NCBI GenBank assembly: GCA_040756905.1
Contig: JBFLYD010000017.1
Coordinates: 1-41,988, forward strand
DNA: 41,988 bases
Source: Acidobacteriota bacterium
Lineage (GTDB): Bacteria; Acidobacteriota; Aminicenantia; JBFLYD01
Direction: 5' to 3'
Made by a program: the position numbers and the translations under genes. This document shows, in pieces, positions 1 through 4,016 of the stretch. Within the stretch, counting starts at the first letter, position 1; every line of letters begins with the position of its first letter. Under the pieces are notes generated by a model. It ran no database searches. It was given only the letters and a program-made list of their open reading frames with translations, and was not told the DNA's origin.

Positions 1-600
1 AACTTTTTCAAATTCTGATTTCATCGAAAAAGTGGCCGGAATAAATCGGAATGGGTGGCCACTTTCAATCAGAATCAGTGGCCGGTTTGAATCGGAATCG
101 ATGGCCACTTTGGATCGGAATATACAAACAAGAGATTTGAATATTTTTCCTCTATCAAGAGCAATAGGAATTGTTATATCTTTTTTATTTATAAAATCAT
201 TAATTATTTTTATATTTTGGTCAGAAATTCCTACCACTTCTATTCCTTTATTTTCATAAAAACTGATATTTCTCTGGGCATTTATTAGATAGCTGTAACA
301 GACATCACAATCGCTGAATTTAAAATAGATTAGAAGAAGATTATTTGATTTTAGTTCTGATAAATCAATATAATTATTGTCAAAAGTTTTAAAAATAAAA
401 TTAGGAAGATAATCACCTTTCTTATAAATTTGAGCATCCTTTTTTTGAGTGGGTTTTTCAAATTGGTTTTTTGCAATCTCTGTAAGAAGGAGATTATATT
501 TATTTAAAAGAGATGAATTTTTAAGAATTAGTATTAAATTTAATGATATAGAAAAAATCAAAATAATGAATAAAATAGAATGCAAAAATTTTGACCTCAT
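1..600 (-). pseudogene. TlpA/AhpC-like membrane-anchored thioredoxin, truncated by a repeat array
   Basis: The minus-strand reading frame starts with ATG at 600 and stays open to the window edge. The first ~160 residues look native: a short basic start, one hydrophobic segment (about residues 5-27) that would anchor it in the inner membrane, then a thioredoxin-like domain with a strand-turn reading IYFKFSDCDVC at about 91-101. The CxxC there (C-D-V-C) is the expected redox pair of TlpA/peroxiredoxin-like reductases. After residue ~160 the protein runs into the 23-bp repeat array and the sequence stops resembling a thioredoxin fold (the C-terminal cis-Pro half is missing), although the frame remains open for another 40 codons. 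It begins 13 bases after the stop of the propeller gene, so it is the last gene of that operon. Start choice: first Met before the hydrophobic segment; the Shine-Dalgarno (GAAAGA) is weak. I infer it is disrupted; a functional fusion is possible. Confidence 0.7.
32..123. repeat. Four-unit 23-bp tandem repeat array, probable insertion-sequence end
   Basis: Four units begin at 32, 55, 78 and 101, an exact 23-bp period. Each has the core (G/A)TGGCC followed by GG or AC in alternation and then an AATCGGAAT-like tail. The alternation (GGCCGG, GGCCAC, GGCCGG, GGCCAC) suggests a 46-bp higher-order unit. IS21-like elements are known to carry several copies of a short repeat at their ends, so this is plausibly one end of such an element lying to the left of the window; no transposase is visible here. 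The array begins exactly where homology-like sequence of the thioredoxin gene ends. Confidence 0.7.
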
Positions 601-613
601 ATTTGAATCTTTC

Positions 614-1612
614 TTATGTCTCAATTTTAAATTTCCGTACTATAAAGTCTTCATCAATAATGTAAATTGTATTGTTTGAGATATTAAACTCTTCTATGAA
701 ATAAGGAAAATACATTTCTCCTAAATAATTTCCCTCATTGTCATATTTAAATATGATTTTTGATGCCTGAAACTTTTCTGTCTCCCTTGAAATAGAAGCT
801 AAAATATAAATATCTCCTTTCTCATCGACTCTGATCCTTTTATTTATAAGAATAGGAATTGGGTTTAAGTCTTTTAAATTCGTTGGCTTAATTTTTTTCT
901 CTGTGAAAATTGATTTAAGCTCTTTTATTTTTTTCCCATCTTTGTTAAATTTGATTATTTTGTTCAAAAAAAGATAAGCAACCCAGATGTTTCCATTTTT
1001 ATCCATATCCATTGAGGAGTAATTTAACAAAGAGAAAAAGGAAAGATTTAAAGGTTTTAAATATTCACAAAAATTTAAGTCAACTTGATTATTTAAAAGA
1101 TTTACTCTATGGCCGAGATACCCTTCAGTAGAACCTTTTAGTTGTAAAGATACAGCTGCAAATGAGGAAAATTTTAAAATGTAAAGATAATTCTGAAAAT
1201 AATTAATATTTTTTACTGAATATGGTGTATTTATACTTGATACATACTCTTCATTTTTATTGAAGAATAAAATTTTTCTTTTGCTTGGGTCAGCAATAAA
1301 GATATTTTTATCTGTTAATTCTATATCAACCGGTTCAAGCACCTGATCAGGCCCTTCTCCTCCTTTTACTATACTTTTTAAAAACTCTCCATTATGGTTA
1401 AATTTTTGAACCCTTTTATTTTTTGTATCAGCGATAAAAATATATTTATCATCTTGAATCTCTATATCCTTCGGTTCATGAAACATATAGTTTTCATCAT
1501 TCTGAATGCCGATTGCAAAATTTTCCTCTTTTACATGGATGACTCTTATTTCAATAGATTGATTTCTACATGATATCAGAGTAAATAATATAATAATGAA
1601 ACTTAATAACAC
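614..1612 (-). CDS. 6-bladed beta-propeller lipoprotein (NHL-like)
   Basis: 332 residues. The N-terminus is a lipoprotein signal: hydrophobic stretch then L-I-S-C at residues 12-15, so it should be exported and lipidated. The rest is a series of propeller blades in which the recurring phrase is a short strand 'D-x-x-(I/Y)-(Y/F)-(I/V)-A-D-x-x-x-x-(R/K)-(V/I)-x-x-F' (clear at about 55-70, 100-115 and 205-225), typical of NHL/6-bladed propellers that bind ligands rather than catalyse. The start codon is GTG at 1612; the only in-frame codons upstream lead directly to the TGA of the preceding peptide gene, so no earlier start exists. It sits 18 bases after that gene and 13 before the thioredoxin gene. 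Ligand unknown. Confidence 0.8.
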   Translation of the reverse strand: MLLSFIIILFTLISCRNQSIEIRVIHVKEENFAIGIQNDENYMFHEPKDIEIQDDKYIFIADTKNKRVQKFNHNGEFLKSIVKGGEGPDQVLEPVDIELTDKNIFIADPSKRKILFFNKNEEYVSSINTPYSVKNINYFQNYLYILKFSSFAAVSLQLKGSTEGYLGHRVNLLNNQVDLNFCEYLKPLNLSFFSLLNYSSMDMDKNGNIWVAYLFLNKIIKFNKDGKKIKELKSIFTEKKIKPTNLKDLNPIPILINKRIRVDEKGDIYILASISRETEKFQASKIIFKYDNEGNYLGEMYFPYFIEEFNISNNTIYIIDEDFIVRKFKIET

Positions 1613-1630
1613 TACGATATCAGATTTTTT

Positions 1631-1927
1631 TCAGCAACCAAATATTCCAAAAACCCAGCAGCAAGCTAATCTCATAGAGCAATTAAAGTTATCCAGAGAA
1701 TAGTATCTAGAACATTGTAGATTACAGTAATATTCCATTAATCCTCTTGTAGTTTTACTACAATTGTCGTGGCATCTTATAGCTCTATTATGAGCACTTC
1801 TTACGCATTCATCATATTCGTCGCCACATGCTCTCCAGCCATAGACTGGTTTTGGCATCAATAGAAAATATGAAACTATCCCTAATACTATAAACACACC
1901 CAAAGAGATTGAAATTAATTTTTTCAT
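1631..1927 (-). CDS. Small secreted cysteine-rich peptide
   Basis: 98 residues. A basic start and one hydrophobic segment (about 4-23) ending in a plausible signal-peptidase region before W31 suggest export; the remaining ~68 residues hold ten cysteines, including an adjacent pair (CC at about 89-90) and a Cys as the very last residue. A clear Shine-Dalgarno (GGAGG) lies a few bases before the ATG. I do not recognise the family. The neighbours, a propeller lipoprotein and a membrane thioredoxin with CxxC, fit a peptide whose disulfides are formed or reshuffled outside the cytoplasm. In Bacteroides, short Cys-containing NVEALA-type peptides occur beside 6-bladed propeller and TlpA genes; this is an analogy of layout, since the NVEALA motif itself is not seen. 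Confidence 0.7.
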   Translation of the reverse strand: MKKLISISLGVFIVLGIVSYFLLMPKPVYGWRACGDEYDECVRSAHNRAIRCHDNCSKTTRGLMEYYCNLQCSRYYSLDNFNCSMRLACCWVFGIFGC

Positions 1928-2415: not shown

Positions 2416-2448
2416 ATGAGAAAAATCGATATAAAAAGAAATACATAA
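2416..2448 (+). CDS. Ten-codon leader ORF coupled to the symporter
   Basis: ATG at 2416 opens a ten-residue frame (MRKIDIKRNT) whose TAA overlaps the symporter ATG as TAATG. The start lies about 7 bases after the predicted transcription start. Neither this ORF nor the symporter has a strong Shine-Dalgarno, so ribosomes terminating here could reinitiate on the symporter. There is no proof that it is translated; chance occurrence is quite possible. Confidence 0.3.
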   Translation: MRKIDIKRNT

Positions 2449-4016
2449 TGATCAAGTTTGCATTTCTCGATTGGCTCTGGCTATTTCTATATCTTGTTTT
2501 AATGACAGGATGTGGGATTCTATTTTACAGACTTGGTAAGCGTTCTGAAGCTGATTTTTTCCTCGCAGGTCGGGGGCTTCCCTGGTGGATTCCAGGAATG
2601 AGTGTTTATGCTACCCATACTGCCACTGATACGCCAATGTGGGTTAGTGGTGTAATTTACAAGCATGGGCTCAGAGGACTATGGTATACATTCTTTTCTG
2701 CCTGGTGCGCCATAGCGGCCTTTGTTTCTGCCCGTATATTCCGTCGTTCCCTTGCCTATTCCCAGGCTGAATGGCAGAGCTTGCGCTATTCTGGACTGGG
2801 AGCTGAGCTCCTTAGAGGATGGATGTCCGGATGGGGTGCCTTCCTTAACATGTTTATTCTCGGCTGGGTGGGAATGGCAATGGGGAAGCTCTGCAACTAT
2901 CTTTTTGGCTGGCAAAACTGGATAGGTCTTGTTATCCCATCCATAATTGTGGCTATCTATGTCCTATCTGCAGGTTTCTGGGGGGTAGTGATGGCTGATT
3001 TCCAGCAGGGTATTATTGCCTTCTTTATAATCTTAATAGCTTCACTGTGGGGAGTTATGGTGGCAGGAGGTCCATCCGCTATAGTAGAGAAACTTTCAAA
3101 TATTGGTGAGATATGGAGACTTGATCCTTTTAATTTCACAGGCTTTCTAAGAGGAGAATTTCCTTTTGCCTGGTTCATTACAATGATCTTTATAGCAGTA
3201 CTGGGTGGGTTTGGAATGGGAACAAGCATAGACTGGTATGCTGAAGCCCAGCGTATCCAATCCTCCAGAACTGTAAGGGATGCATCCTATTCTATCTGGT
3301 GGGGAACAGCTCTGACTCTTACCAGAAATTCTATCTGGGCAGTTGCCATCATCGCCTTCTTTATTCTCCACCCTGGATTGACCGATCCAAAAGAATATGA
3401 GATGGCATGGTATCGTGTAGCATTTGAAAATCTACCCATAGGATTAACTGGATTTCTGTTTGCAGGCGTAATTGCCATTCACTTCTCTACTATCTCAACC
3501 CATCTTAATCTTGGAGCTGTCTATCTCACAAGGGACCTGTATCATCATTACATTAATCCAGAATCCAGTGAGAAGATGCTGGTTCTTGCAGGAAGAATTT
3601 CTACCGCACTCCTCCTCATAGGTTCCTTTATATATGGAAGCATGATGGAGGAGATAACAAAATGGCTGATTTTTGCTCTATGGATTATGGGAGCAGGAAT
3701 GTGGTTACCCAACATCCTCCAGGTTATATGGTGGAGATTTAATAGCTGGGGATATCTTTCAGCATGGATTGCAAATCTTGGCATGAGCTGGCTCGTTGTC
3801 TGGATTCTTCCTTCCTTTGGTCTCATTCCAGAGCTTCCTGATTACCTACAGTTCTGGGTTCTTATGTTCCTGACAGCCCTTGTGTATATACCAGTGACTC
3901 TGCTAACCAAACCGGAGGATATGCGTCACCTTACAAGATACTATGCCATGACTAAACCAATTGGATGGTGGAAAACAGTGGAAATTGAGGCGAAAAAGCT
4001 TGACCTTCTCAAATAG
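2448..4016 (+). CDS. Sodium:solute symporter (SSS family)
   Basis: 522 residues with about 13 hydrophobic helices through the whole length. The start of the family is recognisable: after the first helix comes EADFFLAGRGLPWWIPG (about 34-50), the usual SSF signature, followed by 'SVYATHTATD'. The protein sits in the inner membrane and moves an organic solute with Na+. The substrate cannot be read from sequence; the co-directional alpha-mannosidase downstream makes a sugar or oligosaccharide likely. It is the first large gene of the operon, followed 9 bases later by a small two-helix protein. By eye the gene is noticeably more GC-rich than its neighbours, which could mean acquisition from another genome. 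Start: ATG at 2448, overlapping the leader ORF stop. Confidence 0.88.
   Translation: MIKFAFLDWLWLFLYLVLMTGCGILFYRLGKRSEADFFLAGRGLPWWIPGMSVYATHTATDTPMWVSGVIYKHGLRGLWYTFFSAWCAIAAFVSARIFRRSLAYSQAEWQSLRYSGLGAELLRGWMSGWGAFLNMFILGWVGMAMGKLCNYLFGWQNWIGLVIPSIIVAIYVLSAGFWGVVMADFQQGIIAFFIILIASLWGVMVAGGPSAIVEKLSNIGEIWRLDPFNFTGFLRGEFPFAWFITMIFIAVLGGFGMGTSIDWYAEAQRIQSSRTVRDASYSIWWGTALTLTRNSIWAVAIIAFFILHPGLTDPKEYEMAWYRVAFENLPIGLTGFLFAGVIAIHFSTISTHLNLGAVYLTRDLYHHYINPESSEKMLVLAGRISTALLLIGSFIYGSMMEEITKWLIFALWIMGAGMWLPNILQVIWWRFNSWGYLSAWIANLGMSWLVVWILPSFGLIPELPDYLQFWVLMFLTALVYIPVTLLTKPEDMRHLTRYYAMTKPIGWWKTVEIEAKKLDLLK

Follow-up and report, generated by a model that had tools for sequence, protein, structure and literature searches.

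An insertion-interrupted operon for a cysteine-rich exported peptide, a beta-propeller and a TlpA-like protein as a possible copy of a peptide secretion and maturation module in Aminicenantia

One end of a contig from an Aminicenantia genome carries an operon for a short cysteine-rich exported peptide, a six-bladed beta-propeller and a TlpA-like protein, the last of which is cut by an insertion sequence (IS), and comparable gene groups recur in the same genome and in other genomes of the class. We consider the chances about even that this locus is an IS-damaged copy of a peptide secretion and maturation module widespread in Aminicenantia, which would combine export, thiol handling, binding by a propeller and ABC-2 transport. 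The window analyzed here (41,988 nucleotides) is the whole of contig C17 (GenBank JBFLYD010000017.1) of a 2.56 Mb genome in 69 contigs (GCA_040756905.1), which is the sole representative of its order in the set of genomes compared. Its class is that of the Candidatus Aminicenantes and Saccharicenans records, since identical propeller loci turn up in both collections.

The peptide gene (1631-1927, minus strand) has a Shine-Dalgarno sequence (GGAGG) upstream, which makes a good ribosome-binding site. It encodes 98 amino acids with an N-terminal hydrophobic signal segment followed by ten cysteines, all located C-terminal to that segment, in agreement with the first-pass annotation of a ten-cysteine exported peptide. 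Sec-dependent export is the best reading of this sequence, and signal cleavage and disulfide formation are predicted from the hydrophobic N-terminus and the cysteine content. The peptide had no Pfam match at E ≤ 1 and no NCBIfam match, and direct searches found no recognizable relative in 142 genomes of the class or in 396 genomes of the phylum. The best outside matches (E 0.001-0.1) were short, partial or interrupted by stop codons. Upstream of the operon, two perfect 14-bp palindromes, TGTAACATGTTACA (2109-2122 and 2131-2144), are spaced 22 bp from each other in the region separating the operon from a divergent transporter-like gene (2448-4016). Such palindromes are expected 0.12 times per shuffled window and were absent at all other loci fetched; they represent a possible candidate operator.

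The adjoining propeller gene (614-1612, minus strand, GTG start) encodes a protein with the lipobox LISC. It matched the Pfam profile DUF5128 (E = 1.5e-8, 34.7 bits, cut-off 22.9), and its AF2 model (pLDDT 73, pTM 0.75) gave the NHL domain of Brat as the best Foldseek match (1.1e-15), with further resemblance to the Bacteroides propellers DUF4221 (3s9j) and BF0058 (4raa). Profile score and predicted fold thus both place the protein among the DUF5128/NHL six-bladed propellers. It had been described as a lipidated propeller, and while the lipobox and the fold stand for the window protein, the lipobox is not kept across related loci, so the lipid anchor is not a conserved feature. A propeller search of the source genome returned 24 matches, mostly separate paralogues. 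About two dozen DUF5128-like matches in 2.56 Mb is an unusually large set, and their neighbors vary (TlpA, radical SAM, ABC).

The third gene was proposed to complete a three-gene operon with a CxxC membrane thioredoxin. The peptide and propeller frames are present and the spacing is tight (18 nt between peptide and propeller, 13 nt between propeller and tlpA), but tlpA is not complete. Its 5' part (127-600, minus strand, 158 codons) encodes a membrane-anchored TlpA/AhpC-TSA-type thiol-disulfide oxidoreductase that matched AhpC-TSA (Pfam; E = 3.5e-12, 46.8 bits, cut-off 26) and a leave-one-out profile (E = 7.9e-16). Its translation contains a CDVC motif (298-309, minus strand) that aligns with the CxxC of related loci. 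The AhpC-TSA/thioredoxin fold, the N-terminal membrane anchor and the CxxC are those of TlpA/ResA-like proteins, while the gene is broken at position 127, and the cis-proline expected before the last strands is missing. The ORF given as 1-624 in the original list joins tlpA to sequence of the IS. Positions 1-126 are the end of a high-copy IS with its outer terminus ...CGGAATATACA at 126, and the contig breaks within it. This stretch recurs at 24 contig ends of the source genome, and the opposite IS end, with terminus ...GGAATATGCA, was found at 16 more. The element is putatively IS21-like, judging by its termini. With at least 24 ends of one type and 16 or more of the other, it breaks up much of the assembly, so that many genes next to contig ends are cut by it.

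The other half of the gene could be located from a 7-bp target-site duplication, AACAAGA (127-133), whose reverse complement, TCTTGTT, comes right behind the opposite IS end on contig C50, the only one of the 16 opposite ends to continue in this way. When the two flanks were joined as an empty site, the TlpA-like frame ran uninterrupted into C50 and ended in a typical thioredoxin-fold C-terminus save for the proline. The tlpA gene of the window is therefore interrupted by the IS, and its remainder lies at the start of C50. Read across the insertion, the protein has FTSFRILIN (FTSF), with no proline at the cis-Pro position, and no WCxxC motif, so its activity is uncertain.

On C50, the tlpA remainder is followed by an ABC-2 permease gene (ABC2_membrane_2, 1.2e-11) and then by an ABC ATPase gene. 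The order peptide, propeller, TlpA, permease, ATPase in isolate Kmv29 (L175) is that of the window joined to C50, the ATPases being 49% and the permeases 27% identical between C50 and Kmv29. Saccharicenans-type loci have a fused permease-ATPase gene, either divergent or downstream, and the ABC genes of the module were seen only at the window/C50, Kmv29-type and Saccharicenans-type loci. The system was thus rightly recognized as a recurrent trio but is larger than that. A defense-system reading was rejected, as PADLOC matched only the generic ABC ATPase. No radical SAM maturase gene, as expected for a sactipeptide or other radical-SAM RiPP, was present in positions 1-2450 of the window or in C50 up to position 1780.

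At seven loci of the source genome, genes for an exported Cys-rich peptide (6 to 13 Cys), for a propeller and for a TlpA-like protein lie no more than a few hundred bases apart. Besides the window, these are on C31, C48, C51, C56, C57 (two peptides) and C64, and a TlpA-like gene is found at each; gene order varies. The TlpA-like gene of C57 encodes a tandem double domain with CxxC only in the second domain (L086:13411-14367), and that of C51 shows weak similarity (leave-one-out E 0.0018). At C64, an IS200-like transposase fragment (L090:1435-1830) separates a 10-Cys peptide from the propeller, a further case of a transposon striking a locus of this type, and C19 has a propeller and TlpA with a transposase nearby and no peptide detected. 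A MauE gene lies beside the C57 locus. The peptides of the different loci are unrelated in sequence and cannot be aligned with one another; they may be separate kinds of protein that occupy comparable positions. Among propeller loci, the presence of TlpA and the presence of a peptide co-occur (Fisher p = 1.6e-4). A filter for exported Cys-rich ORFs picked out seven, at six loci, in the 85 kb lying up to 1.5 kb from propellers. The other 143 kb of source-genome sequence scanned gave none, and 505 kb surrounding distant propellers from other phyla gave one spurious match; these statistics are descriptive, since the filter was designed with the first peptides already known and misses the C31 peptide.

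Other propeller paralogues have different company. Leader-type Cys peptides on C58 (L079:4862-5050) and C20 (L078:2622-2822) adjoin propeller paralogues and ABC genes, and on C37 a 62-aa signal-less Cys peptide (L087:3617-3805) lies between a 179-aa Cys-rich protein and a propeller, neighbors for which no family was found. The C58 and C20 peptides resemble CA_C0660-type sactipeptides (NF035954), with E = 3e-7 and E = 1e-3, respectively, both below the curated cut-off, and a radical SAM gene is present at C20. This family shares with our loci Cys-rich peptides adjoining propeller paralogues, whereas it lacks a Sec signal and has a radical SAM gene, and the window peptide does not match it. Together with the ABC genes at both loci, these observations point to a reading that would extend, rather than exclude, the module proposed here: the propeller would serve exported Cys-rich products in general as a partner, among them sactipeptide-like products modified by radical SAM enzymes, and the TlpA loci would be the disulfide branch of a single natural-product system. 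We regard this as unlikely, given that such loci number two or three, that their scores are below the family cut-off and that several propeller loci have no peptide at all.

We also doubt that the operon is, in its present host, a decaying remnant without function. An IS inside tlpA with its target duplication, along with the transposase genes at C64 and C19, is what such decay would look like. Against it, neither the reading frames of peptide and propeller nor the ABC genes downstream are damaged, and seven paralogous loci persist.

Recurrence across the class was the test proposed for the trio, and it was borne out for the gene setting. For the propeller, a single-protein scan of genome contigs gave no match and the full alignment was too diverse, but a tighter alignment worked. 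The best full-length propeller relatives in other genomes have a 4-Cys exported peptide upstream and a CxxC thioredoxin-like gene downstream. From propeller-linked peptides of this kind, we built a CX6C...CX6C profile, which was searched without restriction to propeller loci and matched in 35 of 142 class genomes. At the best 30 CX6C loci, a propeller gene adjoined the peptide in every case, and a TlpA-like gene lay within the locus of about 3 kb in 19, a count to be read with the fact that the fetched locus often ends before the expected TlpA position. Surroundings were viewed at the named loci L175 to L186. Peptide and propeller genes either overlap or lie very close together. Outside the class (396 genomes of the phylum), the single CX6C match was weak and lay inside a 1537-aa frame. 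In the AF2 model of a CX6C peptide, a signal helix is accompanied by a hairpin of two helices in which the CX6C pairs sit (mean pLDDT 67, moderate confidence), and none of the exported peptides tested belonged to a Pfam or NCBIfam family. MauE was considered as a constant part of the module and rejected: at the class loci examined it lies mostly away from propeller and peptide, and with rhodanese genes in the loci read. At L263, L256 and L282, the gene before MauE encodes a small protein, exported or membrane-bound (rhodanese-like in the source genome), and the two form a separate pair.

The window peptide itself has a CX6C at its start and another near its end, and MAFFT put four of its cysteines in register with the CX6C peptides, but a later test of profile against shuffled sequences was negative. 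It scored -5.9 bits against the CX6C profile, and 1,363 of 2,000 shuffled copies scored as high, so its membership in the CX6C family was rejected. The suggestion that it belongs to a distinct peptide family is consequently not supported, the direct searches having also yielded no relative. As the family profile does not recognize it, it is the setting that is conserved and not the peptide sequence.

If the proposed module is correct, a short peptide with a Sec-type signal would be exported, and the membrane-anchored TlpA-like CxxC protein would oxidize or isomerize its cysteines. The six-bladed NHL-type propeller at the membrane might then bind the peptide once folded, acting as its partner, carrier or receptor, while the ABC-2 permease and ATPase could export the product or protect the producer. 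The peptide part would diversify quickly while its partner genes stay. Gene content, adjacency, recurrence, folds and the IS interruption with its second half are observed, and the functional steps of this scheme are inferred from them. The occurrence of peptides in tandem, the seven loci of a single genome, the patchy distribution and the strong divergence are compatible with a product for antagonism or signaling, without proving it.

A different role for the peptide, not as a released product but as a small subunit (structural or redox) within a periplasmic complex of propeller and thioredoxin, with its cysteines as substrate or sensor and its diversity as drift, seems to us improbable. The nearest structural pairing is NHLRC2, which has a thioredoxin fold and a six-bladed NHL propeller and for which the authors report no conserved operon in bacteria (PMC6107167). 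NHLRC2 and SOQ1 fuse the two domains, with a Cys motif facing the propeller (PMC6107167; PDB matches), and a subunit would suit both the tightly spaced or overlapping peptide and propeller genes and the existence of propeller and TlpA loci without a detected peptide (C19). The thioredoxin-NHL pairing is common to both, but in NHLRC2 and SOQ1 it is one polypeptide with a CCINC motif and no peptide gene. In addition, a different peptide sequence at every source-genome locus and tandem peptides would be unusual for an obligate subunit, and an ABC-2 transporter accompanies the module. Finally, a methylamine-dehydrogenase-like complex, in which a Cys-rich small subunit with a Trp-derived quinone would join a propeller large subunit under maturation by MauD (TlpA) and MauE, is very improbable: the part types match those of MauA/B/D/E (secreted Cys-rich small protein, propeller, TlpA-like and MauE-like parts, the last beside the C57 locus), but the lack of a conserved Trp for the quinone cofactor (the Kmv29 peptide has none) mostly refutes it, the window operon is without MauE, MauE genes of the class usually accompany a rhodanese gene and lie apart from propeller and peptide, and the fold search gave NHL six-bladed domains with no methylamine dehydrogenase large subunit among the matches listed.

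Returning to the secretion and maturation module, a close counterpart in gene content would be the Bacteroides arrangement named in the first-pass annotation, in which NVEALA peptides (PF14055) are encoded with six-bladed propeller and TlpA genes. The likeness would lie in a short exported Cys peptide adjoining a DUF5128-type propeller and a TlpA-like gene. The ABC-2 transporter is additional here, and the window peptide has no match to the PF14055 profile, which also gave none over the cut-off in 100 class genomes; by profile, the peptide is indeed distinct from NVEALA, as first proposed. Our literature search found no paper describing the present peptide-propeller-TlpA system and none on NVEALA. 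Judging from the available text of PMC7794033, the nearest published idea is that of MauE/MauD homologues modifying Streptomyces precursors with at least eight Cys: the candidate RiPP families found there with decRiPPter have such precursors beside MauE (one family also MauD), which are proposed peptide modifiers. Both cases place a Cys-rich gene beside a Mau-type gene, whereas the Streptomyces families belong to another phylum, with no propeller mentioned in that text, and MauE is not constant in our loci.

As far as the literature searched shows, a Cys-rich peptide with its own maturation and partner genes is undescribed for Aminicenantia. As a tentative extension, it is possible that the class has a general peptide-export system, in which fast-diversifying Cys-rich peptides would be disulfide-bonded by TlpA-like proteins or crosslinked by radical SAM enzymes, each with a dedicated six-bladed propeller that would serve it as a carrier, receptor or immunity protein. 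Annotation easily overlooks small secreted peptides, and a recurrent module with a thiol enzyme, a propeller partner and a transporter would, in bacteria that are little studied and largely uncultured, supply a peptide family for antimicrobial or signaling testing. It would also explain what some of the many unassigned six-bladed propellers do.
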